From Hyperoplus lanceolatus (Eukaryota > Chordata > Actinopteri > Uranoscopiformes > Ammodytidae), in contig CM049403.1 in NCBI GenBank assembly GCA_026929865.2, positions 26,659,001 through 26,723,000 of the forward strand: a DNA stretch of 64,000 bases, read 5' to 3'. The notes under the pieces are model-generated. The model was not told the DNA's origin and did no database searches. It saw nothing but the letters and a program-made list of their open reading frames with translations. Positions 40,301 through 56,665 of this stretch are shown here, piece by piece (position 1 is the first letter of the stretch; every line of letters starts with the position of its first letter). A program made the translations under genes and the position numbers.

Positions 40301-40729
40301 GGGCCAGACATATTTGTGTTAGCTAAAACCGTTTTTTTTATTCATAACCTTGAACAAAGTGCTGTTAATTTGTTATAACCCAACCAACCACACCTTGGAC
40401 TTCGATTGATGCAAACCTTGGTCTCTGTTGACAGTCCTGCACAAATGACTAGTATATAAAATCTTTTTTCTAGGGGAGGTAGTTTGAAATGATCCTCCAC
40501 AGTTGAATCGACTTCACCCTGCTTTTAAGTCATTTTCCTTTTTCTTATAAATGAAACCTTCACTGAGAATATTTCTTGTGAGAAAGTGCTTTCAATGTGG
40601 CTGACAAAAAAGAGGCAAAGACATAAAAAAGGCAATGAAAGCATGGCCTTAAACGTCTCAAAACCACTCCCGCATCATTGTCCACTTCATCAGAGTGAAA
40701 TATTTTTGCCTTGGCTCTAGGTCACCATT
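37304..40729. other. Non-coding stretch with two weak small-ORF candidates
   Basis: Contains a poly-C tract at about 37366-37378 and no recognisable repeats. Two minus-strand frames were considered: 37812-38045 (77 codons, strong Kozak context) and 39062-39337 (91 codons, hydrophobic). Neither resembles a protein I know. Confidence 0.45.
37812..38045 (-). CDS. Candidate small membrane-protein ORF (uncertain)
   Basis: 77 codons from an ATG in GGCCATGGGG context, a strong vertebrate initiation match, with an in-frame TAG three codons upstream. The N-terminal half has hydrophobic and Gln/Ser-rich parts. The segment LPLAILVLVLSLVVRI near residues 45-60 could span a membrane, followed by a basic stretch (INRMSRPKCK). 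I do not recognise the protein. No splice sites, polyadenylation signal or family evidence tie it to a transcript, and a frame this short arises readily by chance. Confidence 0.15.
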   Translation of the reverse strand: MGTIILLTEVPFSKLLVSQSQTKLQQVLYSSGVEGLQLYLTSDLPLAILVLVLSLVVRINRMSRPKCKIFLCTTHRV

Positions 40730-40746
40730 CACTCAAAAAAAAAAAT
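40730..40746 (+). repeat. Left terminal inverted repeat of the EnSpm element
   Basis: CACTC followed by a poly-A run; pairs with TTTTTTTGAGTG at 56149-56160. Preceded by TT. Confidence 0.8.
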
Positions 40747-41092
40747 CATTGGATCTATTTGATTTTATCACGACACCTATATTGCACGTAAACAAATCAT
40801 GTTATGTCAGCTGACCTTTATCATGTTATTTGAACACATTGTACATGTGTAGGTTGAACATAATGTGAATATTTAAATCCAACTAAATTGCATTGTGTTG
40901 AATCTATTTGTTTGTACTTCATTGGACCTACATGATTTTATCATGACACCTATATTGCGTAAACAAATCATGTTATGTCAGCTAATCTTAATCATGTTAT
41001 TTGAACACATTGTACATGTGTAGGTTGAACATGATCTCACGAATATTTAAATCCAACTAAATTGTATCGTTGAATTCAAATGTTTGTACTAG
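40747..41092 (+). repeat. Two tandem 173-bp subterminal units
   Basis: Unit 1 starts at 40747 (CATTGGATCTATTTGATTTT) and unit 2 at 40920 (CATTGGACCTACATGATTTT). They share ACACCTATATTGC, GTAAACAAATCATGTTATGT, GAACACATTGTACATGTGTA and AATCCAACTAAATTG. The motif GTTGAACA/T recurs at about 40853, 41024, 41144 and 41192. Subterminal repeats of this sort bind the transposase in characterised CACTA elements; here that role is inferred. Confidence 0.85.
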
Positions 41093-41494
41093 GTTATTTT
41101 GATCAAATCAATTTTAAAGTATTCTACATTGGCCAAACACTTTAGTTGAACATAATTTCACCTTGTTGTATCAATTTATATAGGGTGTGTCAGTTGAACT
41201 AATGTCAATCTAGCTGATTTAATTAGTGGTTCTCTCATCCCTTGTACAAGGGTGTATACGACCATAATAGTAGCATGCAAATACATTTTTTACATTTTAT
41301 TCAACATTTGGCAACAAACATTTTGGCTGCATCACTGCTATTTGTTAAGTGCACTGCTACTTCTGGAGCCCCAAAAGTCTTATATGTTTTTTCCCACATA
41401 TGCAAATACACGTTAATTTTTTAGCAAAATTGGTACGGTATACCACCATCGAAATGCATGTAACATTTAACACCATTTTCAAACACTCACAAAA

Positions 41495-41803
41495 TTATCT
41501 TGGCCCATTGTAAAAGGCAATGCTCACCCAACCAGACCAATACTGGGAAATGCATTGTTTTAACCAGACACAGGCTCTACTTGGGCGGCCCACAGGTAGA
41601 TAAATAAAATATTCCATTGATTTAAAACTCAGTAATAGTACATGGTGAAGCCCTTGTGTGCGGCCCATGGCAAAGTGTTTTTGTTGTATGTTGGCGTTAA
41701 AAGTGAATCGTGCACCCAGTTTAAGTCTACAGTAAAGCCACGTGGTGATGTGTTCCAAGTGCTGTTGGTTAAAATGAGAATTTGGGGAAGGTAATGTCAT
41801 CAA
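41495..41803 (-). CDS. Uncharacterised 102-codon ORF inside the EnSpm element
   Basis: Open frame starting MMTLPSPNSHFNQQHLEHIT and ending WSGWVSIAFYNGPR, downstream of the SAMD3-like gene and on the same strand. Unlike both recognisable genes of this element it has no interruption. It has aromatic- and Cys-containing stretches but no domain I can name. It may be chance, a remnant of 3' sequence, or a third element gene. No splice signals were found. Confidence 0.2.
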   Translation of the reverse strand: MMTLPSPNSHFNQQHLEHITTWLYCRLKLGARFTFNANIQQKHFAMGRTQGLHHVLLLSFKSMEYFIYLPVGRPSRACVWLKQCISQYWSGWVSIAFYNGPR

Positions 41804-42343
41804 TGTGATCCTGTGAAATATACTTTTAGGGGAGAAACTAAAACAAAAAGGCTACAGCTGCTGCTGAAGTATTTAAACATCCAAATGTAGTTTAATATGT
41901 AAAGTAAACAGTAGTTTATTTATTTTGACCTGTCTATAGTCAGGTTTGATTAATGAGTAAATTGTGTTCCCTTCTAAATTATTTAACATCATTGAATCAT
42001 TATCAGTAAATGGTTCATAAACCCTGTTTGACTAATCTATTACCAAACCCAGCGATCACACGCTGCACCGTCACACTCAGTGCCACACACAAGTAAATGC
42101 TCAACCTATTGGTTATACAGTCATAAAATTGTCCAAATCTACTGTTAAAAAAACAAACAAAAAAAACACACAATTTTAGGTCACTTCAACACCCAAACAA
42201 CAATGCTAGTGTTCTTATACATTTACACCTGAGACAACATTCTTGGTCTCTGTCTGTTGAACAAACATGCAAGTCCCTCTGAACTAATTTTAAACCAAAA
42301 AAAAAAAAAACTCCATTGGAGACTTTCTCTACCTGGAGAAAAT

Positions 42344-42657
42344 TTACCCCATCAGCTTGTTTTTCAGGAACTGCGCCTTCGAGGACAGCCTTTGCCCATC
42401 CAGATTAAGAAGGATTTTTTGGGACACTTCGAAAGTACACCTGAGGTCTGCTGGGTAGGTTAAGTTAAGGCAGTAAATCAGTCCAAATAAAAGCGCAAAG
42501 GCCATCCCAATGTTGCCAAGGTAGCTATCACCTCCTCTCCCTCGATGAGGATGCCGACGTCCTCTAGTTCGTCTCCAGGCGCCGCACCTTCCTTTTTGAT
42601 CGCATAGATTCCCAGCACAGTTTCTGCCTTGCAGGCGCCGACCTCAGTGTCTGTGTC
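42344..42657 (-). other. SAMD3-like pseudogene, exon 4 (last)
   Basis: Acceptor ATATCCCACAG. Encodes DTDTEVGACKAETVLGIYAI and DELEDVGILIEGEEVIATLA; after a frame change near 42470 it continues YCLNLTYPADLRCTFEVSQK to NKLMG and a stop at 42344-42346. Confidence 0.75.
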
Positions 42658-43313
42658 CTGTGGGATATAATACGAACATTGCTTTATTTGTGCTTGAATT
42701 TATGAGTTCAAACCAGCTGTGCACAAAATAGATACTATCAGTATTGTTAGTGTTGTATTAAAAAGAACTACATGTGTCTTTCATAAAATAAGCGCAATTT
42801 GTATTAGTTGTACAAGGTTTCAAATGTATGTTTTGCCACTTAAAAAGATGCAGTGTGTTGTAATAATAGAGGTCAACGCCCCCTTGCTAACCCCCAACTT
42901 CTGGAGAAATTACAGAAGCTACGGTGGCCTTCAAACTAGTCTTGGGAATATCAAGTGATGTGAAGATGTATTTAGTCATTTACTCAGCATACTTTCTTTC
43001 CAACGAGTGCATTTCCCCAGGACGCCCACATATAAAAATGTGTAAGGCCTCTAACATGGTGGCATTCCCCGTTCTATGTAGATATATAGAAGGCTCATTC
43101 TAACGTCATACAAATAAAACATTTTATTTTCAAGAGATTATATACTCATTAAAAATTAATTTAAACCATGTCTTTTTCAGGAAAAATCAATGCACCCTTA
43201 ATACATATCTATCACACTTGCTTTCTCATAAGAATTGATCATATAAAGCAAATAAATATTGTTTCTTTCCAACTTGTTTACTTGTTTACAGCCTCTCAAC
43301 ATTGTGTACTCAC

Positions 43314-43406
43314 CATATAAACCTTGAATAGTTTATCTGGGTCTTCGTTCAGGTAGATGCACAAGGACTTGAGGACACATGCACGTTTTGCTTCAATTGT
43401 GTCGTC
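43314..43406 (-). other. SAMD3-like pseudogene, exon 3
   Basis: Acceptor TTTTTCTTCCCTCAG, donor ATG|GTGAGT. 93 bp (31 codons), frame intact: DDTIEAKRACVLKSLCIYLN and onwards. Exons 2, 3 and 4 are separated by introns of 412 and 656 bp. Confidence 0.75.
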
Positions 43407-43818
43407 CTGAGGGAAGAAAAAGACACTTGTTGAGATAATATTCCATCTTTTTGTCAAAAGTTTGAAAACAGATTTGTACTGTTGATTTTCTGGTGCAGAC
43501 AACATTGCATACTTCACATATAATTATTCATAAACTTTAAGCTCCAATAGAATAAAACTAGCCAGGTACAAAAAAATTCACCCCCCTCAGTGTTGCAATG
43601 GAGATATGACCTTAACATACAGTGTACCAGGCCTTAAATAGGTTTAATAATGCTGTGAAAGTAGCCTATTTAACATTGGAGTCAATGAGAAATTGCTGTG
43701 TTTTAAAACCTGCCCTTACTGGCCACTCGGTGAAATGCAATTGTTGTCACTTCTGCATTGGATGCTAATAATCTGATAGCACAGGGACAACAAGCATAAT
43801 CAACTCTTTAATACAAAC

Positions 43819-43973
43819 CTTGGAAATGTCCCACGATGACATGTCTTAATCTTCTTCCTTGTGCTCCACCCTTGCCCTGAAATAACTCCATCAGGCAGAG
43901 TGTACCGGTCAAGGGCAGCAAAGAATGTTGAGATAAGAAGTGCAGTTGATATGCGATGGAACTCCTTCTCGAT
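43819..43973 (-). other. SAMD3-like pseudogene, exon 2
   Basis: Acceptor TTTTTGTTTTCCAG, donor AAG|GTTTGT. Encodes IEKEFHRISTALLISTFFAA and, after a frame change, GKGGAQGRRLRHVIVGHFQ. Confidence 0.7.
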
Positions 43974-44117
43974 CTGGAAAACAAAAATGCATGTCACTTA
44001 CCCTGTCAGAACATCACAACACAAGAATGAACAATGACCCATTAGTTGTTTAATCACCATCAGTGGAGAGAAAAAGAACGGGTATTAATAAAACCTAAGC
44101 ACACATAGGACAAGCAC

Positions 44118-45140
44118 CTCTTTCGCTTTGAACAGAGCTGGCCATCTGCTCTTGACATCTGTAACCAAGGGCTCTCCTTCAAGGGATTTCCTGCCTCCTG
44201 TATGAGGAAAGTCTTCTCCATTTTCCAACGTCACAATATGGTCATTGTTCCTCTTCTTATTTTCTGAAAGCAGTGCGACTCTTTCCTTCTCAAGACTCTC
44301 AGTGGTTTCTCCTGTTGGATGCTGCGGAAGGTAATTAACCTCAGCCCTTCTGGGCTTTTTCACATTTGAAGCTGCCGGAGAGCAGCAGCCGTGTTCCTTG
44401 TTGGTCAGTGAATTTATTGTCACCTCAGAGCATCCAATGCCTCTAAGTTTGGACCCGGTAGTTGGCCATTTTAAACCTCAGGCTTAACTTCCAGCCGTAG
44501 CATCCATTGAAGGATCCTTGTTCCCTCAAACAAGAGGTGCTTTTTATAGTGCTTCTGCAACATCATTCCAATCCATGTCAGTTGGATAGGCTTTATATTT
44601 GAGAATTTCTTCAGCCAAGCATTCGGATGTTAGATTTCAGCTTTGGTGGCACGTTCAGGTGAGATCCTTTTGCGCTGTATTCAGCATCAGCTTTTTCGAG
44701 CTGTAGATGTGACTCATAACTGAAACGAGGGATAGTAAAAACACTCGGCCAAGACCAGTGCCGTGCAGAGGGTGAAGACGATGTTGATGAAGCAGGCTCT
44801 GTATTGTCTGTCTCAACAGAGGAGACCGATGAGGCATCAAGTGGCTCAACAGGTAATAACTGGAGCAAAATTGAGTCTTCTGCAGAAGAGTTCTGCAAAT
44901 AGACAACCTTTAAGGTTGCTTTGTTGTCAATTTCAGCGATCACTGAAAGATTGACAAATTCCATGCCAAAATCAGCATCCTGATATTGCAGACGAAAGTC
45001 TTGCCCCAATCCAAAATGTAGCTTTAATGTCTGTATCAATTCCTCGATGAGTCTGGTCTTCCTGCTGGCAGAATGATTTTGCAGGCATCTTCGTCACCCA
45101 GGATGACCCTCAGTATCATAGGCTGGGTCATTATGGAGAC
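44118..45140 (-). other. SAMD3-like pseudogene, exon 1 (main exon)
   Basis: Acceptor TTTGTGTTTTCAG just upstream of the exon start on the minus strand; GT donor after ...LFKAKE. It carries the PB1-like domain and the KKPRRAEVNYLP region. The acceptor shows that an upstream exon should exist, either a private leader or one shared with the transposase gene. Confidence 0.7.
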
Positions 45141-46565
45141 CTGAAAACACAAACAAAAGGTTGAATTTGGCACAATACACAGTAAAATAGGCACTTTATG
45201 TACAAACTGTGGTTTGTGTTGTTTATTGGACAGGTACAATGCACAGGTCCTTAGCAGTACCAGAGTTAGCTTCTATAAGCACATTTCCCTCTGTAGTCCC
45301 TCAGCAGGAAAGAAAATATGACAAAAGGGAAACCTCACACTGTAGTATAAAAACACTAACACAAGATTTCACAACTGTGAAACACACTATCAATAAAATC
45401 CCATCATTAGGACACCACTAAACCAGACTTCACAAAATTAAAGTTTAAGTTGGCGATTCTGGAGGAGGCTCGTCTTTGTTTGGCAAATACAGGGAAGGTG
45501 AGAAGAAATGTACTTTGTACTATTTTGACTTCCCCTTGAAGATAACAGTCTATGATGAGAACATGATTGGGTTGATTGTGGGTGTGAATACTTACAAACA
45601 TTACTTGCATTATCCGTTTAAGGTAATGTGTCTCTTCAGAGAAACCAGACGCAGGCATCCCACTGAATAGGCAGCTAACGGGTAGTCATCAAGTAGTTCC
45701 CCATGCTCAATCAGAGCCACCTCTCGCACATGTGACGTGTCCAGTTCAAAAGCTCGAAAATGCTCTCTATACCAACTAGAGAACTTTTTTACAATAAAAT
45801 GTATCTTGCCTTGCAAAATACCGTCTGTGTAACTCCGGGTGGGGGCTGGATGAAAGGGTCATTCCTTTGTTGTAATTCATTCCATTGTATGAAGCAACGT
45901 TTGTAATGTGGACATCAGTCTCATCTGGTAATCTTTGTAATAGCAGCTGCAATGTCACTTTGCAAAACATCCACAGGTACTGATGAGACACTTGTTACAG
46001 ACAGGTGTCCTATGGTCAAGACAGTGCAAGTCAGAGGCAATTGCAAGTGATGTTTTCTTGCTAGTGTGAGAAGCGATATGTTTTTAAAACAGTTGGTATG
46101 GCGAGCAATCTGTTTGAAGACACTATGTTTTGCCTCAAATCTCATAGTCCATGCATGGACAAGAGGGCCAAATTGGCGAATCAGAACAGGATAGTGCTCC
46201 AAAAAATGATGTTTAGGGAGAAGACGGCTGTTGGGAAAAAGGTCTTGGTATCTCAGGCGATGTTCATCAATTTTGAACTCGAGGTAAGCTATTGACTCAT
46301 CAGAGTGGACAGGGGCTACAACAAGCTCCACTATATCCTTTAGATCCAAAACAACATGCCATACAGGTTCATCCTCCGGAACAAGTGGACCAATGATCAG
46401 AGGCAACAATCGAAGCAGAGCCCAATTCTCGTGTGCATTTCCACCAATGCTTTTTTTTACCGAGAAAGTCTGTGGTATTGCAGCAGGACGATTTGTTTTA
46501 TCTGCCCATTTATATTCGAAAGTTTTGATCAAATTGTTAAGTTTTTCTAAAGTGAAATACTTTTT

Positions 46566-49500
46566 CACCCTATGGAAAATCACCAAAGAGGAGGAGAGAC
46601 CCTGCCCGGAGGAAGCCCGGGGCCCCCGTCTGGAGCCAGGCCCAAGAAGGGGCCCGCCTACCAGCGTCTGGTGGCGGGTCTGCCCGCAGGGGCCCGGCCG
46701 GGCACAGCCAGAGAAGCTACGTGGCACCCTTCCCTGACCCGATGGGCCCACCACTCGTCGGAGGAACCGCTGAGGTCGGGTGCGCTGCCTAAAGGGTGGC
46801 AGTGAGGCGGGGACTGCGGACCAGACCCGGGCGGCAGAGGCTGGCTTTGGGAGCGTGGAGCGTCACCTCGCTGTGGGGGAAGGAGCTGGAACTGGTGCGG
46901 GAGGTGGAGCGCTACCAATTAGACCTGGTGGGGCTTACCTCCACGCACAGTCTTGGCTCTGGAACCGTACTTCTGGACAGGGGTTGGACTCTATTCTTCT
47001 CTGGAGTTGCCCAAGGTGTGAGGCGCCGGGCCGGTGTGGGGATACTCACGAGCCCCCGGCTGGGCGCTACTACGTGGGAGTTTACCCGGTGGACGAGAGG
47101 GTCGCCTCCCTACGCCTCCGGGTTGTGGGGGGGAAGACTCTGACTGTTGTTTGTGCGTACGCACCCGAACAGCAGTTCGGAGTATTCGGCCTTCTTAAGG
47201 AGACCCTGAACGATGTCCTGCATGGGGCTCCGGTAGGGGACTCCATAGTTCTGCTGGGAGACTTTAACGCGCACGTGGGCAATGATGGAGACACCTGGAA
47301 AGGCGTGATTGGGAGGAACGGCCTCCCCGATCTGAACCCGAGTGGTCGTTTGTTGTTAGACTTCTGTGCTGGTCATGGTTTGTCTATAACGAACACCATG
47401 TTCGAACATAAGGATGCTCATAAGTGTACATGGTACCAGAGCACCCTAGGCCGAAGGTCGATGATCGATTTCGTGATCGTATCATCTGATCTGAGGCCGC
47501 ATGTTCGGTTGCTCGGGTGAAGGAGGGCGAGCCTGTCAACTGATCACCATCTGGTTGTGAGTTGGGTCAAGGGTGGGGGAAGACTCTGGACAGACCTGGT
47601 AAGCCCAAACGGGTAGTGCGGGTGAACTGGGAACGTCTGGCGGAGGCCCTGTTCAAGAAGATCTTTAATTCGCACCTCCTGCAGAGCTTTTCTAGCATCC
47701 CTGTGGAGGTTGGGGGCATTGAACCAGTGGTCGATGTTCAAAACTTCCATTGCTGAAGCCGCGACCGAACAGCTGGTCTCAAGGTCTTAGGTGCCTCAGG
47801 GGCGGTAACCTCGAACGCCGTGGTGGACCTCGGTGGTCAGGGAAGCCGTCCGACTGAAGAAGGTGCTTCCGGGATATGTTATCTCGGGGGACTCCTGAGG
47901 CAGTGCAGAGTACCGACAGGCCCGAAGGGCTGCAGCTTCTGCCGTGACCGAGGCAAAGCAGCGGGGGTGGGAGAAGTTCGGAGAAACCATGGAGAAGGAC
48001 TTTCGGTCGGCACCAAAGTGTTTCTGGAAGACCGTCCGGCACCTCAGGAGGGGGAAGCGGGGAACCATCCAAGCTGTGTACAGTCAGGATGGGACGGCTG
48101 TTGACCTCAACTGAGGAGGTAGTCGATAGGTGGAAAGAGCACTTTGAACTCCTGAATCCGACTAACACGCCCTCTATGTTGGAGGCAGAGCTGGAGGCTG
48201 ATGGGGGATCATCGTCAATTTCCCTGGTGGAAGTCACTGAGGTAGTCAAACAACTCCACAGTGGCAAAGCCCCGGGGGTTGATGAGATCCGTCCAGAAAT
48301 GCTGAAAGCAATGGGTGTGGAGGGGCTGTCATGGATGACACGCCTCTTCAACATTGCGTGGAAGTGGTGCAGTGCGAAGGAGTGGCAGACCGGGGTGGTG
48401 GTTCCTATTTTCAAAAAGGGGGACCAGAGAGTGTGTTCCAACTACCGGGGTATCACACTTCTCAGCCTTCCCGGCAAAGTCTACTCCAAGGTGCTGGAAA
48501 GGAGGGTTCGGCCGATAGTCGAACCTCAGATTGAAGAAGGAACATGCGGATTCCGTCCTGGCCGTGGAACAACGGACCAGCTCTTCACTCTCGCAAGGAT
48601 CCTAGAGGAGCTTGGGGTTGCTCATCCAGTCTACATGTGTTTTGTAGATCTGGAGAAGGCTTATGACCGGGTTCCCCGGGAGATACTGTGGGGGTGCTGC
48701 GGGAGTATGGGGTAGGGTGTCTCTTCTGAGGGCCATCAATCTCTGTACACTCAAGCGAGAGCTGTGTACGCGGGTTCTCGGTAGTAAGTCAGACCTGTTT
48801 CCGGTGGGGGTTGGCCTCCGCCAGGGCTCACGCTTTATCACCAATCCTGTTTGTGATATTCACATGGACAGGATATCAAGGCGTAGTCGTGGTGGGGAGG
48901 GGTTGCAGTTTGGTGGGCTGAGATCTCATCTCTGCTGTTTGCGGATGATGTGGTTCTGATGGCATCATCGGCCTGTGACTGGCTCTCATTGGATCGGTTT
49001 GCAGCCGAGTGTGAAGCGGTTGGGATGAGGATCAGTACCTCTAAATCCTGAGGCCATGGTGCTCAGCAGGAAACCGATGGATTGTCGACTACAGGTAGGG
49101 GCAGTCCTTACCCCCAAGTGAAGGAGTTTAAGTACCTCGGGGTCTTGTTTGCGAGTGAGGGGAACAATGGACGTGAGATTGGCCGTAGAATCGGAGCAGC
49201 AGGGGCGGTTTTGCACTCGCTTTACCGCACTGTTGTGACGAAAAGAGAGCTGAGTCGTAAAGCTTTCGATCTACCGGGCGATCTTTGTTCCTACCCTCAC
49301 CTATGGTCATGAAGGCTGGGTAATGACCGAAAGAGCAGGAATCGCGGTACAAGCGGCCGAAATGGGCTTTCTCAGGAGAGTGGCTGGCGTCTCCTTAGAG
49401 ATAGGGTGAAGCTCAGTCATTCGTGAGGAACTCGGGGCAAGAGCCGCTTCTCCTTGCGTCGAAAGGAGCCAGTTGAGGTGGTTCGGGCATCTGGTAAGGG

Positions 49501-49708
49501 AGGTGTTTCAGGAGCATCCAGCTGGAAGGAGGCCTTGTGGAAGACAAGGGGAGAGATTATATCTACACACTGACCTAGGAACACGTCGGGATCCCCCAGT
49601 CAGAGCTGGTCAATGTGGCGCGGGAAAGAGAAGTTTGGGGTTCCCTGCTCAAGCTGCTGCCCCCGCGACCCGATTTAGGATAAGCGGTTGATGATGATGA
49701 TGATGATG
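46566..49708 (+). mobile_element. LINE (non-LTR retrotransposon), coding-dead
   Basis: Plus-strand element, opposite to the gene it interrupts. A target duplication AATACTTTTT lies at 46556-46565 and 49709-49718. It is GC-rich compared with its surroundings and ends in GGATAAGCGGTTGATGATGA, that is, a (GAT)n tail. It encodes an endonuclease and a reverse transcriptase in one broken frame. At 3.14 kb it looks near full length or modestly 5'-truncated. Clade: fish elements with this protein and a GATAAGCGGT-type tail; I/Nimb-like or RTE-like, not settled by eye. Confidence 0.92.
46796..49680 (+). pseudogene. LINE endonuclease-reverse transcriptase, broken
   Basis: Apurinic-type endonuclease at about 46850-47520: [20 protein letters not shown] and [10 protein letters not shown] in one frame, then after a shift near 47080 [29 protein letters not shown] with the catalytic Asp-Asn pair, and [16 protein letters not shown] with the late Asp. 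Reverse transcriptase from about 48240: GKAPGVDEIRPEML, WQTGVVVPIFKKGDQRVCSN, YRGITLLSLPGKVYSKVLER, GFRPGRGTTDQLF, FVDLEKAYDRVP with the first catalytic Asp, and FADD at 48938-48949 (LLFADDVVL). C-terminal part: FKYLGVLFASEG and, near 49480, WFGHLV. Many frameshifts and stops separate these pieces, and several stretches (for example 47520-48090) show only fragments. The active-site FADD is still present. Confidence 0.9.
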
Positions 49709-51844
49709 AATACTTTTTTGAAATCAAAAGAAAAAAACAATGAGCTAGCTCTACAGGTATAATGCCCTCAAATAAATCATGGGCAAGATCTGGAGGGTAA
49801 CCTGCAGTAAGATGAAAATGTGATAGAGCCTTGCTCAGAACACATTCACGTTTAACGCCACAGTATGCACTTGTTTTTTCCAGTGCACACTTCAAATGTG
49901 CATCATGAAGTTCCAGCGTTCTGCGCTCAAAGCGACTAGCTGTCAATGACTGAATTTCTGTTTTCTTAGCTGTACAGAATCTACAGATGTATTCCCCGGA
50001 GAAACTTTCTACAAAACCTGCCAGGCCATGGGCACCTAGGTTATCAGCTATTACACAACTCACAGTGCCTTTGATACACTCATTCAATTGAGTGATGAAC
50101 AAACCATGCTCCTCCAAAATTACCAGATCTTTCAAAAGTGGATCCAACACTTCTTTGAAACCGAATTTTCTCAAATCGTCACTTTTACAAAGAACAGCTA
50201 AATAAATTGACGAGAGAGCAGAATGAGAGCCAGGCGGCAAATTGTCCAAAAACCAATATACCCCACAAAGCTTGTGCTTTTTGCGAGAGGTCCCAAGAGG
50301 ATTACAAACCTCAAATTCGTCGATGTAAAGTTTTATGGAAATTCTCAACTCATCAACAGCTAGAAAGCTATTTGTTTTGTAATTTTCACCATCTCGAAAA
50401 GACCTGTAAACTTGTTGATCACCATGCAAAGCTTCTCTATTTTTTTGAGCTGTGTGTTCTTCAATCACTTTATCCAGTATTTTATTGTGACTCAGTACCT
50501 CCTGCAATAACTGTAATAATGGGACATATTGAAATGTCCTCCTTTGTTCTACAGATAAAATATACTCGGTTGCTTCAACAACTCTAAAATGAACCTTGTA
50601 ATACTGTTTTCTTTTATAGGATGTGGCAAGAGGGCCAGACCTTTCAAAACTTTTAGAGACAGGGTTAGAGACGCATACAGAATTAGCAAGTTCTTCGAGA
50701 ACTGCCGGACCAATATTGAGTTTATGGCTCTTGAAAATTTCTGTAATTGTATGCTTTCTTGACAGGTACACTAGCTGAACTTAGAAAATGCAACTCTTCC
50801 AATAACTCATCCAAACCTTTTGCAGGAATATGAAATATATGTTCTAATTTTAACAATATTGCTGCTATTTTCCTCTCAATAACTTGTGGCAAATTTTCCA
50901 CAGGTCCACTTTCCTTTTCTGTCACCGTCTCAACTTCAACATCAAATGACACATCAGCTGGATAGTCAGCCCCAACGCCGCCAGAGGCAACCGGTCCTAC
51001 AACGGTGTTCACAAAGTTAACTACACTGGTTTTAAAATCGTTCAGTGTGTGTGGATGATGCTTTCTCCTTTTGTGACTGTTAAACGAATTATAAATATTG
51101 GACTGGAAAGAGCATCCAAGAAATACACAACCAACAGTCTCAAAATTTTGCAGATGTGTCCCCAAGTGAGAAAAATAATCACTCTCAGTAGAGAGGTCAC
51201 TACGTCCACATACCTCACATTTAAATGTTACTGTATTTAAAGCAGTCTGTGAAGGCTGATATGAATGCGCTCTATAAACATGCGTTCGGAGGGTAGTCCA
51301 CGTCCTGAATGTGCAAGGACAATTTACATAAATGCATTGATATTGTTGGCCTCTCCCATAATGATGATGTAGTTTATAATGTTTCAGTAATTTGTACCTG
51401 CTAATCTCTCTGGTGACACAATGTCTGCACTGCCACATACAGGTCACTGTAACAAAAAAGAAAAGAAAAAGGATTAGCAAATAATTCATATACAACATTT
51501 CAAAAGGGTGTGCGATCTTGAAAAATAGAAAATAAGCAGGGTATTTATTATGACGAAAAAGGACAGTTCTTCGCATCCTTCAAAAGGAAACTGATAAATG
51601 AAGAGAAAAAAAAAACTGTTAATGTATTTTTTTAGCCTGCTCTTGTAAATAGAAATTTTTATTTTAGAGTTTTAGTCAGCGATTGTTGACAAATCACTGT
51701 CAAAATCTTATATATAATCTTAATATTGATCTGCAACTAAAGTCAGTACTGTGTGCACTGAAAAAAAAACAATGTTATGACATTTTCAATGCCTTTGACA
51801 AAAACCTTCTCCAGCATTCTCTAGAATCGCTGACTCAACCTTAA

Positions 51845-52404
51845 AGAGGACCTATTATGCTACTTTTCTGGTCTTAATTTCTTGTTTTACACTGCTATAG
51901 AGCAACCTGACACGAATCACATCACAAAAAACTATGTAGATTTTCGGGAAGCTTTTTCTCTTATTTTGGCGATCCAGCACATCCTGTCAACACTTGAGTG
52001 TGTGTGCTTGGCTCCCTCCCCCCCTCCTGCAAGCCCCACTCCGTTGTGATTGGTTACCTTCCTTCCGAGGAACACTTTCAGTGAGCGGGAGCGCGAGCAT
52101 GGACCTATAAGGGGCGCGAGGCAGACGAACAAGGAAGTGACAGACCACCATACATGGAAACATCCGCGTGGTGACGTCACACATTTTTATGCAACGTCAC
52201 AAATTATGAAAGGCTAGCCCGCTTTGAACACGTGACTTCTCCACTGTGTTTAGTGGTCTGCGCAGACACCCCAGACGGTCAGCAGGGAATACGTCGAAAT
52301 GCATGTAAGTCATTATTTGATAATTTAGTATGGTTAAGCATGACTATGAATCATCATAACAACGTTTATAGGTCATAAAAGTCAAAAAGCATCATAGGTC
52401 CTCT
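51845..52404. mobile_element. TTAA-target MITE in the 5' intron of the EnSpm transposase gene
   Basis: Flanked by TTAA at 51841-51844 and 52405-52408. The left end AGAGGACCTATTATGCT and the reverse complement of the right end AGAGGACCTATGATGCT differ at one position. It has a fairly GC-rich interior, no coding capacity, and is about 560 bp. The family is piggyBac- or Kolobok-like by target. Confidence 0.85.
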
Positions 52405-52435
52405 TTAAATAAATAAAAATTAATTTAAAAAACAT

Positions 52436-52540
52436 TTATAGGGGCGAGGGGGCGCTAAGGCCTCGCAGCAGACCCGGGTAAGAATCCAGCCCGAGTCGCT
52501 CTCTGCATGTCATTCCCCTCTCTGATACATTTCCACTCTG

Positions 52541-52543
<3 letters not shown>
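52436..52543 (+). mobile_element. tRNA-derived SINE fragment
   Basis: GCCTCGCAGCAGACCCGGGT and AAGAATCCAGCC contain a degenerate B box, followed by TGCATGTCATTCCCCTCTCT and TTTCCACTCTGTCTAATATA. It corresponds to the 3' half of the SINE at 56666-56820. It is followed directly by the long (AT)n run. Confidence 0.65.

Positions 52544-52598
<55 letters not shown>
52544..52598. repeat. (AT)n microsatellite
   Basis: AT run of about 27 units between a SINE tail and the hAT-type MITE; it appears to have been the insertion target of the latter, since AT repeats also follow its right end. Confidence 0.95.
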
Positions 52599-52601
<3 letters not shown>

Positions 52602-53591
52602 TGCTGTCAAACGACTAAAATATTTAATCGCGATTAATCGCATCAATGTCATAGTTAACTCGCGATTAATCGCATTTGTATTACTTCTAGCCTGTCCCTT
52701 GATTTCTTTATGCTCTTATCACACCCATTCTGATTATGATATTAAAGAAGAAATACACTGAATTACAATGATGTCTACACCGTTGTAATTCAGTGTAGCC
52801 TATTTCTTCTACAATATCACAACTTGCAATTCAGTGCAAATAACAATAGGCTATATAACCCCCCCTGCACCCCACCCCTAGAACAGCATTCACAAACATA
52901 TTGGAACTTATTTTTTTTATTTAAAAACCAAACCATAAAACAACATAGGGTATATAAAACAAATAAGTATTAAAGCTAAATTAAACTGGTTGTTGTAGGC
53001 CTAAATGTTTTGGGAGTCTTTCATCCACGGCTTATTTCAGACTGTGTGGAGTGGACACGCTATGCCTGCGTGCAGGTGGTTGCCATGGTGCTGCTGCGGC
53101 CGAGGCTTCGTAGCGAAAATTAAAGTGAAAATGAATGACTGGCGGCTGCCACTAACATTCATGGAGGTTTTGGTGTGCGTGCAGGGTTATAAGTAGGACT
53201 TTTGATAATTACAGGCTTTTCCGCGAGGTCCCAGACTCACACACGGAAGACTAGTGAAGGTACGCGTAGCTGAGCTAGGAAGTGCTAGGTTCCGGTTTCT
53301 GCTTCAAAATAAAAGTCAGAATTGACTTGACGTTTCGCTGTTTTGCCAGTTAAATTATTTTATTGTGAAATTACGCTGTGGGACATGTTCCGTTTGAATT
53401 GACAGTAACTTACCTTCGAGCCATATGCATAGTTTGTAGTGTTTCAGTTGTTCTAACATTACTAATTGATACAACAGCATGTGAAACCACAACCACAACA
53501 TTTCCTAGGCCATGACGAGCGTTAATCGATAAAAAAAATTGACGCCGTTAAAATGGGTTTGCATTAACATCGCGTTAAACTGACAGCACTA
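52599..53591. mobile_element. hAT-type MITE (TAGTGCTGTCA termini)
   Basis: The left end TAGTGCTGTCAAACGACTAA and the reverse complement of the right end TAGTGCTGTCAGTTTAACGC share the first 11 bases. Subterminal blocks carry CGATTAATCGC repeats on the left and GTTAATCGAT / GCGTTAAAC on the right. Both flanks are ATATATAT, compatible with an 8-bp hAT duplication but uninformative in an AT tract. It is 993 bp without a transposase. Confidence 0.75.
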
Positions 53592-53817
53592 ATATATATA
53601 TCAGCTAAATGTAGTATCAAATGTTGAACAGATAAAACTGAAGAAACTCTAGTTAACAGCAAGGCTTGATAAAAAAATAAAGTGAACAAATACTCATGAG
53701 GCAACCTCAGGAATGGGTAAATTCAGTTTTCAAAAATAATTTAACACTGATATCAGCTTAATGTTATGTTTATACATATGGCACTAGATAAACAATGTGA
53801 TACAAATATTAACTTAC

Positions 53818-53869
53818 CATGTGAGGCTAAAGGCAAATCTGAGCAGGGGGACAGCTATTTTTCTGATTT
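53818..53869 (-). other. Predicted 52-bp non-coding exon 2 of the EnSpm transposase gene
   Basis: On the minus strand the segment is bounded by a strong acceptor (TTTTTTTTCCCCACCAG) and a strong donor (ACATG|GTAAGTT). It contains one terminal ATG that would run into TGA after splicing to the main exon, so the main start is expected at 51438. Inferred from splice signals only. Confidence 0.5.
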
Positions 53870-54554
53870 CTGGTGGGGAAAAAAAAAGATTAATAGTTTT
53901 AAAATGCTATAAACACAAGCAATTTTTATATTGTGAATACTCATTTCAGTATCTGTAGTTATACACAGACGGTTCAACTTAATGTAGAGGAGCATTCATT
54001 TTACTAAAAAAATAAAATGCAATAATCAGTGGAAATCTAATATAAAGGAAGCGATCATACTCGTGGTCTAATGTTAGGGCTGTACAGTGCGACAGTTTTA
54101 TCACATTTTGCTATTAAAATTGATGACATGCGATGATGAATACAATGCTACTCGCAGTGCAACAGGTTAGTAATGAGGAGATGCTGTTTTTGAGACACGG
54201 GAGTGATGCACAACACTGCTTAGAAGGCTCTAAATTAACACTCGTCAAATGCGGGTAAATGTATTCTTATGCGAGTAAGTCCACCCGCCACTTTTGCTAG
54301 TGAAAGAATGTGTGCTCGTCCGTCACCAAAGGTAATCAACAGGGAGGACACGGCTCTCTTTACTTTAACGCAGTCAAGTTACCGCGTGTGCAAACATAAC
54401 ATTTCCTGTGCGCCTTCACATTAAAAGTCTGTTAAAGCCAAACGTGAGTTGACTTTTATTTTGAAGCAGGTAAGAACAGGGAGTTAACGCATCCCAGCCC
54501 CGCAGTGCTAGCTTGAAAGGCAACTGATCCTTCAGCTGCATTGAAATAAGCCAC
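53870..54554. other. EnSpm 5' intron sequence
   Basis: No gene. 54082-54130 (TTAGGGCTGTACAGTGCGAC) resembles the end of a common fish hAT-type repeat, and 54220-54530 reads like an old repeat, but no matching second terminus was found. Confidence 0.4.
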
Positions 54555-54691
54555 GATTAAATTAACTTCTCATTGGATTGATATATACTGTATGTTGACC
54601 TGACTTTTCTTTAAATTAGCTATTATGAACAAGAGTGAATCATGTAATGACGAAAAACATGTTTCAATCATTGTATGTCAACATATTCTTA
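54555..54691 (+). repeat. 137-bp direct repeat, inner copy
   Basis: Nearly identical to 55981-56118, in the same orientation, sharing CTTCTCATTGGATTGATATA, TTGACCTGACTTTTCTTTAA, ATTAGCTATTATGAACAAGA, GTGAATCATGTAATGACGAA and AAACATGTTTCAATCATT. The copies differ mainly in a short piece after GATATATA. Confidence 0.92.
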
Positions 54692-55319
54692 GATAAAGAG
54701 AATAATCAACACAATTAATGTTGTACTGTGAGCTATTGTAGAAAATGAATTTGGTTGAACCGATTGCATTGTAGACAAGTCTAACCTGCCAATAGAATTT
54801 TTTTTGCTGATTCAGAATGATTTCCCCCCATAGAACTATACAAATATCTATATATGTTTTACAATTATTATTACTGCACACTAGAATATAATATGGATTG
54901 AGAATCTCAAATGAGACCAAGATAAAATGCTCACCGTAATTAGATGCTACCAAAATTATTGTACTACTGAATTGTTTTGATTGCTAGCACCAGTGCTACC
55001 ACTTGATACAGCCCAATAGAGAAAAGAAAAATCACAAGGAATCGATTCAACTTGCTTGTCATGGCTGCGAGAAACTCGCTGTCCTCCGATGTTTATCATT
55101 AGACATGTGTGCTGTGCATGCGTTGTTTCGCAGGCCCCTAACTGAAAAACCACGTTAACATACACGCGGCCAAAGAACGCCGATAGTCACGAACTAGTCT
55201 GCTGGTTGAAGCCAATAAGTTTGAGTGTCTCCCAGGTTCATCCTGATATTAAAATAATTAAAATAATACCCACGTTACAGCCACGCTACGTCAACGGCTC
55301 GTAACACATAGGACTGTGG

Positions 55320-55566
55320 CTACAACTATACTCTGGCACCATGGCTATAACCATGTGCTAGCACTACACTGCTGCACGTGCACACGTGAGCTAGCAACAT
55401 GGCTATGACTGTGCCAGCACTGCCCCATTACCCATGCACACGTGTGCTAGTAACATGGACATGGCTATGACTGTGCCAGCACTCCCCCATTACACATGCA
55501 CTGTGCGCTAGCAACATGGCTATGACTATGTGCTGGCACTCCCCGCAACCAATGCACACGTGTCTC
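55320..55566. repeat. Minisatellite, about 60-65-bp units
   Basis: Four imperfect units built on AACATGGCTATGACT, GTGCCAGCACT, CCCCATTAC and CATGCACACGTGTGCTAG. The second and third full units are closest. It lies between the first exon and the rest of the EnSpm transposase gene. Confidence 0.85.
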
Positions 55567-55841
55567 TCGAATGAGTACTTACAAACCTGGTTGTATACAC
55601 ATACATTGCCATTTATTTCAACACGAAGCACGAAAATCCACTTTGAGAATACTCGGGTGGTCCATGGGTGTAAATTATAGAAACCTAGCAAGGCGGAGTT
55701 GAGCTACTTTGCGCTAACACGAGTGACAAGAGAAGACTTGAGAAATGTTCTCAGAAATGTATCATAAGGACCAATAGGTACAATTTAACACTCACACGGT
55801 TAAATAAAATACATTCATGATTATAGATATGAATTACTTAC

Positions 55842-55950
55842 CGTAAGATGAAGGATGCTAAACGATAAAGCTGGTATCAGTCCGTGTCTGTCTGTCTGTA
55901 CTCTGTAAATGACTGCATCCGGTCGGTCAAGGGCGTGCACGAGCATGCGC
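55842..55950 (-). promoter_or_regulatory. Predicted first exon and promoter-proximal region of the EnSpm transposase
   Basis: A consensus splice donor on the minus strand (TTACG|GTAAGTAATT, exon end at 55842) follows a segment with no long open frame. About 100 bp upstream is a GC-rich patch containing TGCGCATGC, a partial NRF1-like site, then the right subterminal repeat and terminus. Transcription from the terminus inward fits CACTA-type elements. The transcription start is not known, so the outer boundary is approximate. Confidence 0.45.
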
Positions 55951-55980
55951 AATAGCTCACAGTACAACATTCATTGTCTT

Positions 55981-56118
55981 GATTAATCCACTTCTCATTG
56001 GATTGATATATATCTTTCTAATTGACCTGACTTTTCTTTAAATTAGCTATTATGAACAAGAGTGAATCATGTAATGACGAAAAACATGTTTCAATCATTT
56101 TATGTCAACATATTCTTA
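55981..56118 (+). repeat. 137-bp direct repeat, subterminal copy
   Basis: Outer partner of 54555-54691, ending 42 bp before the right terminus of the EnSpm element. Confidence 0.92.
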
Positions 56119-56148
56119 TCTTGTTAATCAAACACATGCCCAAGTTCA

Positions 56149-56160
56149 TTTTTTTGAGTG
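56149..56160 (-). repeat. Right terminal inverted repeat of the EnSpm element
   Basis: TTTTTTTGAGTG, inverse of the left end; followed by TT. Confidence 0.8.
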
Positions 56161-56665
56161 TTGGCATGCATTGTGAGTGCGATTAATCCAAACTGACAAA
56201 AGCTGCAGTCCTCCCATGAAGGAGCAAGACACAAAGGCTTTAGGAAGCTCATCCATTCACACCCAGAGAAAATTACTGTATTTGTAATGGAATACTTCAC
56301 ACATTTTCTTTAAATTTCCTTTGAAATTAACAACATCTCCTCAAGGGAGACAGTAGGACTGTTCCTTTAATGACCCAAATGTCTTTGCTTGAGTGAGCAG
56401 AGCTGCCTCTGATTCAGGGACTGCAAATGAAGAGCCAACAGACGAGAATTGGGTTTAATGACTATATGACCGTATGTCACATCATCTGAATCATGTATGT
56501 CTTTCACTCATCATTGTGACAGCCACTACTGCTATGAAGTGAAACACATTTGTAAGTAAGTACATTCTTGTATTTATACAGCACTTTTTACAGACCGTTA
56601 CAAAGTGCATTACATGGTCCACAGGCAAATTAAAATGAATGTGTACCTAAAAGAATGATAAAAAC
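56161..56665. other. Non-coding stretch
   Basis: Flank to the right of the EnSpm element; no gene or repeat recognised. Confidence 0.5.

Follow-up and report, generated by a model that had tools for sequence, protein, structure and literature searches.

A probable decayed two-gene transposon of the EnSpm/CACTA (CMC) clade in the genome of Hyperoplus lanceolatus

Introduction

Plant CACTA elements are characterized by subterminal repeats, by deletion derivatives, and by tnpA/tnpD splicing. The present analysis concerns a 64-kb stretch (C9:26659001-26723000, hereafter the window) of the 807-Mb Hyperoplus lanceolatus assembly, the genome examined throughout. Judging from its sequence, this stretch very probably harbors a DNA transposon of the EnSpm/CACTA (CMC) clade, now decayed, in which two genes, one for a transposase (open reading frame 1, ORF1) and a second one (ORF2), are enclosed by CACTC termini.

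The systems closest to this locus are described as follows. In plants, CACTA elements possess two genes, encoding a DDE transposase and ORF2, the latter reportedly aiding excision and transposition in specific families, and they generate a 3-bp target duplication (PMC4158355); En/Spm elements usually contain one or two ORFs (PMC6431247). The CMCT clade comprises DDE transposases with C(2)C and H(3-4)H motifs between the second D and the last E, associated with 5'-CA..TG-3' termini and a duplication of 2-5 bp, whereas the KDZ (Zisupton) elements produce an 8-bp target duplication (PMC12730594). ESTA, a fungal EnSpm-like element, combines the CMCT motif set with a TA duplication and an extra TET/JBP dioxygenase gene, and forms a distinct lineage in the tree (PMC12730594). 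Lastly, in Repbase, fish DNA transposons are filed under EnSpm together with non-autonomous derivatives, as in the case of zebrafish EnSpm-N6_DR (PMC3485254).

Results and Discussion

Boundaries of the element and copies sharing its ends

A preliminary description of this DNA had proposed that CACTC termini, a TT target duplication, and repeat-rich subterminal regions enclose a transposase and a "SAMD3-like" gene, tying them into one mobile unit. The bounded element was confirmed (Table 1): the 12-bp inverted ends are perfect, and CACTCAAAAAAA and its reverse complement are each single-copy in the window. The flanks read CACCATT on the left and TTGGC on the right, so that the duplication is indeed TT, of 2 bp and not of the 3 bp of plant CACTA elements. 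A query made of the joined flanks returned its own locus as two matches, 1-160 and 159-297, overlapping by 2 bp; the same search disclosed no empty site for this insertion in the same genome, as expected for unique flanks. An equally long contiguous perfect match with equal 2-bp flanks was reached in 1 of 300 resamplings (first-order, performed on regions outside genes with their own base-to-base steps), and no clear inverted similarity extends past about 12 bp. The subterminal regions are repeat-rich, as proposed: the left one contains the units of about 172 bp, and the right one a 97-bp core (at 54595 and 56022) that is 99% identical between its two copies, together with tandem units of about 60 bp (55354-55563).

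Other copies with the same ends, whose existence the preliminary description had offered as a check, were found as well. The left 221 bp of the element have at least 30 matches in the genome and the right 221 bp at least 36, and 20 regions of this close family were fetched and read. The right terminus is reached or nearly reached at 17 places; at eight of them a left end of matching orientation is present too (on C9, i.e., the window, and on C13, C15, C8, C16, C2, C231, and C6). L019 (7.1 kb) and L023 (1.1 kb) possess both ends and are bordered by TA on either side, the right end of L023 being GAGCG; in L026, the right terminus is GATTG instead. In L017 (C13), window positions 40737-44290 (96.9% identity) are fused to 53892-56160 (99.5%), which is, as read from this junction, an internal deletion that took out the transposase together with the beginning of ORF2. 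The left terminus and flank of this copy are unreadable because a homopolymer-rich stretch abuts the left end, and left ends are degraded also in L018, L020, and L021. Remnants of ORF2 exons, with a DNA identity of 70-77%, are present in L019, L020, L021, L022, and L029.

Two side observations concern these copies. At about 6880-7200 of L017, the stretch that meets the left end is also of low complexity and resembles an assembly artefact. In L025 (947-1600) and L026 (965-1683), the right ends are 95-99% identical to the window, the matching stops after about 0.7 kb, and left ends were not found within the 10 kb fetched.

Divergent two-gene elements

When the transposase of the window (357 amino acids) was used as a query, 70 places were retrieved, corresponding to 56 loci, four of which were fetched and two extended. 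The element on C22 (L037 + L041) is 10.0 kb long, has ends CACTCAAAAAA (CACTC) and CA/CA flanks inside CA repeats, and contains an open transposase of 900 amino acids and an ORF2 exon of 338 amino acids. The element on C19 (L038), 9.4 kb long, with ends CACTGAAAAAAA (CACTG) and TA/TA flanks, carries both genes, the transposase being broken. In both of them the transposase is followed by ORF2 on one strand, the gene order being that of the window, and the observed end match was reached in 0 of 300 resamplings for each. A further locus at C9:22.47 Mb (L042, L039, L043) encodes a transposase of 894 amino acids with ORF2 about 60 bp downstream; tentative ends CACTGTAAA with TA/TA flanks can be proposed for it.

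Considering the copies read at both ends, equal 2-bp flanks were found in eight out of nine (the window, L019, L023, L037, L038, L044, and the copies on C8 and C1 described below, but not L029/L031), and agreement over 3 bp in none of the nine; this set excludes L017, L018, L020, and L021, with their degraded left ends, and L039, whose ends are uncertain.

Linkage of the transposase and ORF2

With one ORF2 query, a same-strand ORF2 was detected within 8 kb downstream at 19 of the 56 transposase loci, against a mean of 0.02 such loci under random placement, and an opposite-strand ORF2 within 20 kb at none of the 56. When a query from the C-terminal exon was added (91 places), the same-strand downstream arrangement within 12 kb was found at 20 loci. 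The 16 transposase places with the best scores, among them the window, all show it, the other 15 being 39-55% identical to the window transposase. This linkage, and the same gene order between CACTC or CACTG ends on C22 and C19, bear out the proposal that the ends tie both genes into one mobile unit.

The two genes also group alike, on the basis of pairwise identities and not of a tree, L037 joining L038 and L039 joining L040. The ORF1 identities are 0.51 and 0.56, respectively, vs. 0.41-0.43 across pairs, and the ORF2 identities are 0.46 and 0.44 vs. 0.35-0.41.

Features of the two proteins

The transposase contains two acidic stretches, the motif CRFC 20 residues past the second D, the motif KHHxxEHYP, and a final E 20 residues past the last H; the spacing is constant in every readable copy, window included. 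The resulting order D, D, C(2)C, H(3)H, E is that of EnSpm and its kin as given in PMC12730594, the assignment of these positions as catalytic residues being putative. Both the motif spacing and the termini (CACTC/CACTG, with the 2-bp flanks reported above) are those of the CMC/CMCT elements. The membership in the clade rests on the motif spacing and on the ends because the transposase is too divergent for the Pfam tnp2 model, to which three of six transposase pieces of relatives gave weak matches (E 4.9e-4, 0.0016, and 0.062). The matches to DUF4218 and Plavaka are likewise below the cut-off, and the profile searches against PDB returned no transposase relative, only weak matches, mostly to zinc fingers. 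A whole-genome scan with tnp2 was also tried as a transposase marker; it was rejected, the family being too divergent for the model.

ORF2 shows a PB1 match just under the cut-off in one lineage (E 2.7e-4), and the AlphaFold model of the window fragment has a mean predicted local distance difference test (pLDDT) score of 48. In 10 out of 10 lineage pairs, at 33-46% amino-acid identity, ORF2 is constrained, the ratio of non-synonymous to synonymous differences per site (pN/pS) being 0.43-0.57, with pS at 0.79-0.86, i.e., near saturation. As for the gene name, the second gene does lie on the strand of the transposase, as the preliminary description stated, whereas its label "SAMD3-like" could not be verified: SAM_1 was absent from the first exons of five ORF2 lineages, from one last exon, and from the window pieces, which sets ORF2, as scanned, apart from the SAMD3 family.

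ORF2 without transposase

The evidence for ORF2 was merged into 111 loci, obtained with one first-exon and one last-exon query and including many fragments. A same-strand transposase lies within 12 kb at 21 of them and none was detected at 90, some of which might harbor divergent transposases, since the transposase list derives from a single query with the best candidates scored. According to the preliminary description, its proposal would not be compatible with the two genes lying consistently apart and without CACTC termini. Such contrary cases were seen in part and do not overturn the proposal: ORF2 mostly occurs with no transposase detected, yet the L044 family keeps CACTG ends and equal flanks, and the gene side of another group, on C3/C6, is not CACT.

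L044 (C10, 411-6072) is an ORF2-only element of 5.66 kb with CACTGAAAAAAA ends, the first 13 bases of which are identical at both ends (CACTGAAAAAAAT), and with CA/CA flanks beside CA repeats; its end match was reached in 0 of 300 resamplings. It contains an open ORF2 exon of 374 amino acids and further exons, and no transposase was found in the locus, which was read whole. Its right end occurs at nine genome places (seven at full length with 99-100% identity), and at seven of the nine ORF2 starts 1.51-1.58 kb from the right-end match, a distance into which a transposase gene of about 2.7 kb would not fit. Flanking bases were obtained for seven further right ends and four presumed left ends, two of the four left stretches being usable; they are CA/CA on C8 and TA/TA on C1, so that the 2-bp flanks are equal in all three copies read at both ends, L044 included. 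Several distinct sets of identically scoring transposase-less ORF2 copies are also present in the genome. The retention of ORF2 upon transposase loss is the most interesting result of this analysis and the least explained one.

The copies C4:3383292 (L048) and C11:31569479 (L051) have similar outer flanks, with inner ends 100% and 89% identical to L044; they may belong to a duplicated block, or may represent two insertions in one repeat. Moreover, a 61-bp stretch of the L039 element, 180-240 bp in, recurs with 100% identity at eight further loci (Table 1). Five of them have a same-strand ORF2 C-terminal exon 2.9-3.8 kb downstream, and no transposase among those listed lies within 8 kb of any of the eight; these loci are possibly a second ORF2-only family.

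Proposed mechanism and alternative explanations

In the proposed mechanism, ORF1, a DDE protein with N-terminal C2H2-like fingers, would cut at the CACTC/CACTG ends in a cut-and-paste reaction of presumed chemistry, and the cut ends would be joined at TA, CA, or TT sites, giving rise to the 2-bp duplication. A short 5' exon, located with a promoter close to the gene-side end, might be spliced to either ORF1 or ORF2, as suggested by the positions of putative splice sites. An AG acceptor was seen by eye within about 25 nt of the start in 4/4 ORF1 and 5/5 ORF2 genes (immediately 5' of the ORF1 ATG in the window, at 51438), and a donor-like site, picked by eye among one to four candidates per first kb, lies 320-413 nt from the gene-side end in 5/5 elements (GTAAGT in four, GTATGT in L044). 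ORF2, whose N-terminus is PB1-like and which has a stretch weakly resembling forkhead, would act as a TnpA-like helper binding the subterminal repeats, a role for and against which we consider the chances to be about even. Copies that have lost ORF1, but retain ORF2 and the ends, would be mobilized in trans, and have multiplied.

Several observations weigh against the presence here of a two-gene EnSpm-like transposon. All the tnp2 matches are below the cut-off, the best reaching 19.8 bits vs. 28.6; none was obtained with the three window transposase pieces or with the full-length L039 transposase, and the genome-wide scan mentioned above indicated a single place, outside our set. The forkhead-like match of ORF2, kept as a lead, is weak (E 0.015 over 44 residues in the PDB profile search). 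No ORF2 was detected within 12 kb downstream at 36 of the 56 transposase loci, mostly distant or fragmentary, and open transposases of 812-816 amino acids without a detected ORF2 are located at C14:28302509, C15:15746458, and C11:23307905 (37-39% identical to the window). Some transposase lineages may have an ORF2 that is absent or too divergent to be detected, and these three transposases may represent another lineage or be domesticated. In the close family, the left end went undetected at nine of the 17 right-end places (eight of these nine were read about 9 kb inward), and a 27-kb copy on C2 (L029/L031) has CACTC ends with unequal flanks, TT/CA. No transposase was found by tblastn in any of the 20 fetched regions, so that the window is the only copy with both genes among those read in its close family. 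As regards the divergent elements, the ends proposed for L039 are tentative because 29 of 300 resamplings equal their match, which is no better than chance, and because the left end is found at full length at its own locus only; the C5 locus (L040) possesses both genes, with no ends found in 10 kb. The copies L037 and L044 sit in CA repeats, a context in which matching CA flanks carry little weight. Finally, in the ORF2-only group on C3/C6, whose members are 97% alike across 1.5 kb 5' of ORF2 and show, on inspection by eye, a remnant C-terminus of the transposase, the gene-side boundary is not CACT.

Different explanations can be considered for ORF2. It might be an anti-silencing or copy-number factor instead of a transposition cofactor, on the model of VANC, the anti-silencing factor of VANDAL elements. 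Its persistence in transposase-less elements would fit a factor keeping its own copy expressed, and the forkhead-like stretch could bind DNA; however, no ORF2 domain match exceeds the cut-off, and we regard this explanation as possible although rather doubtful. It is unlikely that ORF2 is a passenger with no role in transposition, kept as recent deletions happened to hit ORF1 first: a few deletion events may account for the amplified ORF2-only copies, which are nearly identical, and the helper function is itself conjectural, but a passenger is not expected to stay open and constrained across lineages so divergent, and several distinct transposase-less sets exist.

A much less probable explanation is that ORF2 is a host gene of a SAMD3-like family, repeatedly captured or neighbored by transposons. 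The many ORF2 loci without a detected transposase, the transposase loci without a detected ORF2, the conservation of the ORF2 frames, and the ORF2-only group lacking CACT at its gene side are in line with it. They are countered by the fixed order, strand, and close spacing at the 16 best transposase places, by the agreement between the ORF1 and ORF2 groupings, by CACTG-ended ORF2-only copies that sit between equal 2-bp flanks on several chromosomes, and by the listing of 85 SAM_1 places, none of which falls in the 60 kb upstream of an ORF2 place on the same strand. That two unrelated elements lie side by side with CACTC ends by chance is practically negligible: one resampling in 300 does equal the end match, but the same ends bound other copies, i.e., L017 (interior deleted, left terminus degraded), L019, and L023 (the latter two with TA on both sides).

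Returning to the two-gene transposon, a broader proposal can be put forward only tentatively: ORF2 might be the main target of selection, acting for its own copy (for instance by preventing its silencing or by loading the transposase on it), with transposase-less CACT-ended ORF2 elements arising repeatedly and outnumbering the complete ones, and vertebrate SAMD3-like genes, perhaps SAMD3 itself, might descend from ORF2.

Comparison with known systems

The element resembles plant CACTA (En/Spm) elements in its CACT-type terminal repeats and in having two genes, one of them for a DDE transposase. This likeness of layout is found in the window, L037, L038, L039, and L040. Unlike in plant CACTA, the duplication is of 2 bp (TA, CA, or TT), the fifth terminal base is C (the window family and L037, CACTC) or G (L038 and L044, CACTG) and not A, the transposase falls under the tnp2 cut-off and bears C2H2-like fingers, and the N-terminus of ORF2 is PB1-like. 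The element is filed, on these sequence features, as EnSpm-like within the CMC clade and not as a strict CACTA element because a 3-bp duplication, the CACTA...TAGTG pentamer, and a Transposase_21 (tnp2) match above the cut-off are all missing. It also differs from KDZ (Zisupton), its flanks agreeing over 2 bp only. Compared by description, it shares with ESTA the CMCT motif set, the TA duplication, and the carriage of an extra gene, the host and the nature of that gene being different (PMC12730594). It is likened, again by description, to the animal EnSpm entries of Repbase, such as EnSpm-N6_DR, which are from fish and have non-autonomous derivatives, and the window element may belong to an already described Repbase family.

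If the linkage is general, fish gene models of zinc-finger transposases and of SAMD3-like proteins would each represent one half of a single transposon, and such models should be masked before host genes are counted or differential expression is read. Two "sterile alpha motif domain-containing protein 3-like" names appear in an RNA sequencing (RNA-seq) table of PMC6771007, which shows the relevance of this point, provided that the label refers to the same protein. As the ORF2-bearing relatives without transposase indicate, what looks like a host gene may in some cases belong to a transposon; furthermore, the excess of ORF2 over the transposase would make the role of the second CACTA protein, and its action for its own copy, testable in a vertebrate. 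Among the titles and abstract openings retrieved, no paper links an EnSpm transposase with a SAMD3-like gene; PMC10706053 turned out to deal with SAMD9L.

Organization and decay of the window copy

The features of the element are reported in Table 1.

Table 1. Features of the element in the window (positions counted from the first base of the window) and loci of the 61-bp stretch elsewhere in the genome.
Feature	Position	Strand	Details and basis
Whole element	40730..56160	-	15,431 bp; genes run leftwards from the right end; termini, flanks, other copies
Left terminal inverted repeat CACTCAAAAAAA	40730..40741	+	CACTC start also in L019, L022, L023, L029, L032
Right terminal inverted repeat, plus-strand TTTTTTTGAGTG	56149..56160	-	Same end in L017, L018, L019, L024, L025, L027, L028, L031, L034
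TT target duplication, left copy	40728..40729	.	Flank reading
TT target duplication, right copy	56161..56162	.	Flank reading
Direct repeats of the left subterminal region, period about 172 bp	40746..41090	+	Repeat analysis, copy comparison
Right subterminal repeat unit	55981..56118	+	Second copy 54555-54691
Transposase ORF1, first part	49710..51438	-	C2H2-like fingers, D1 (LYIDEFE), D2 (ADNLGAH), CRFC
Transposase ORF1, second part, beyond the LINE	45921..46565	-	KHHFLEHYP...MRFEAKH (H3H and last E)
ORF2, multi-exon, with frameshifts and stops	42350..45131	-	PB1-like N-terminus (E 0.032); C-terminal exon match 42350-42511
Long interspersed nuclear element (LINE) in ORF1	46566..49709	+	Endonuclease and reverse transcriptase domains
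Candidate 5' splice donor GTAAGT	55836..55841	-	320 nt inside the gene-side terminus; chosen by eye from four donor-like sites within the first kb
61-bp stretch	C400:9240-9300		
61-bp stretch	C22:10776392-10776452		
61-bp stretch	C13:11587607-11587667		
61-bp stretch	C12:20522622-20522682		
61-bp stretch	C9:20716842-20716902		
61-bp stretch	C8:1079002-1079062		
61-bp stretch	C4:34167280-34167340		
61-bp stretch	C2:35515293-35515353		

The window copy is, as it reads, dead: neither protein can be made whole because the LINE interrupts the transposase and because ORF2 is itself disrupted, its comparison with an open relative giving two overlapping matches with four stops in each. The portion 46587-49709 of the LINE shares 92.9% identity with another copy found in L030, the first 20 or so bases of the LINE being assigned through the transposase frame. 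By eye, the LINE is apparently bordered on both sides by a short AATACTTTTT-like duplication; therefore, it would have landed in a continuous transposase frame.

Two other repeats, both delimited by eye, are inserted in the element. The stretch 52598-53597 has inverted ends TAGTGCTGTCAAACGACTAAAATATTTAATCGCGATTAATCGC ... CTGACAGCACTA, and we take it to be hAT-like; a shorter one, 51843-52409, lies 5' of the transposase and has inverted ends TTAAAGAGGACCTATTATGCTAC ... CATAGGTCCTCTTTAA.

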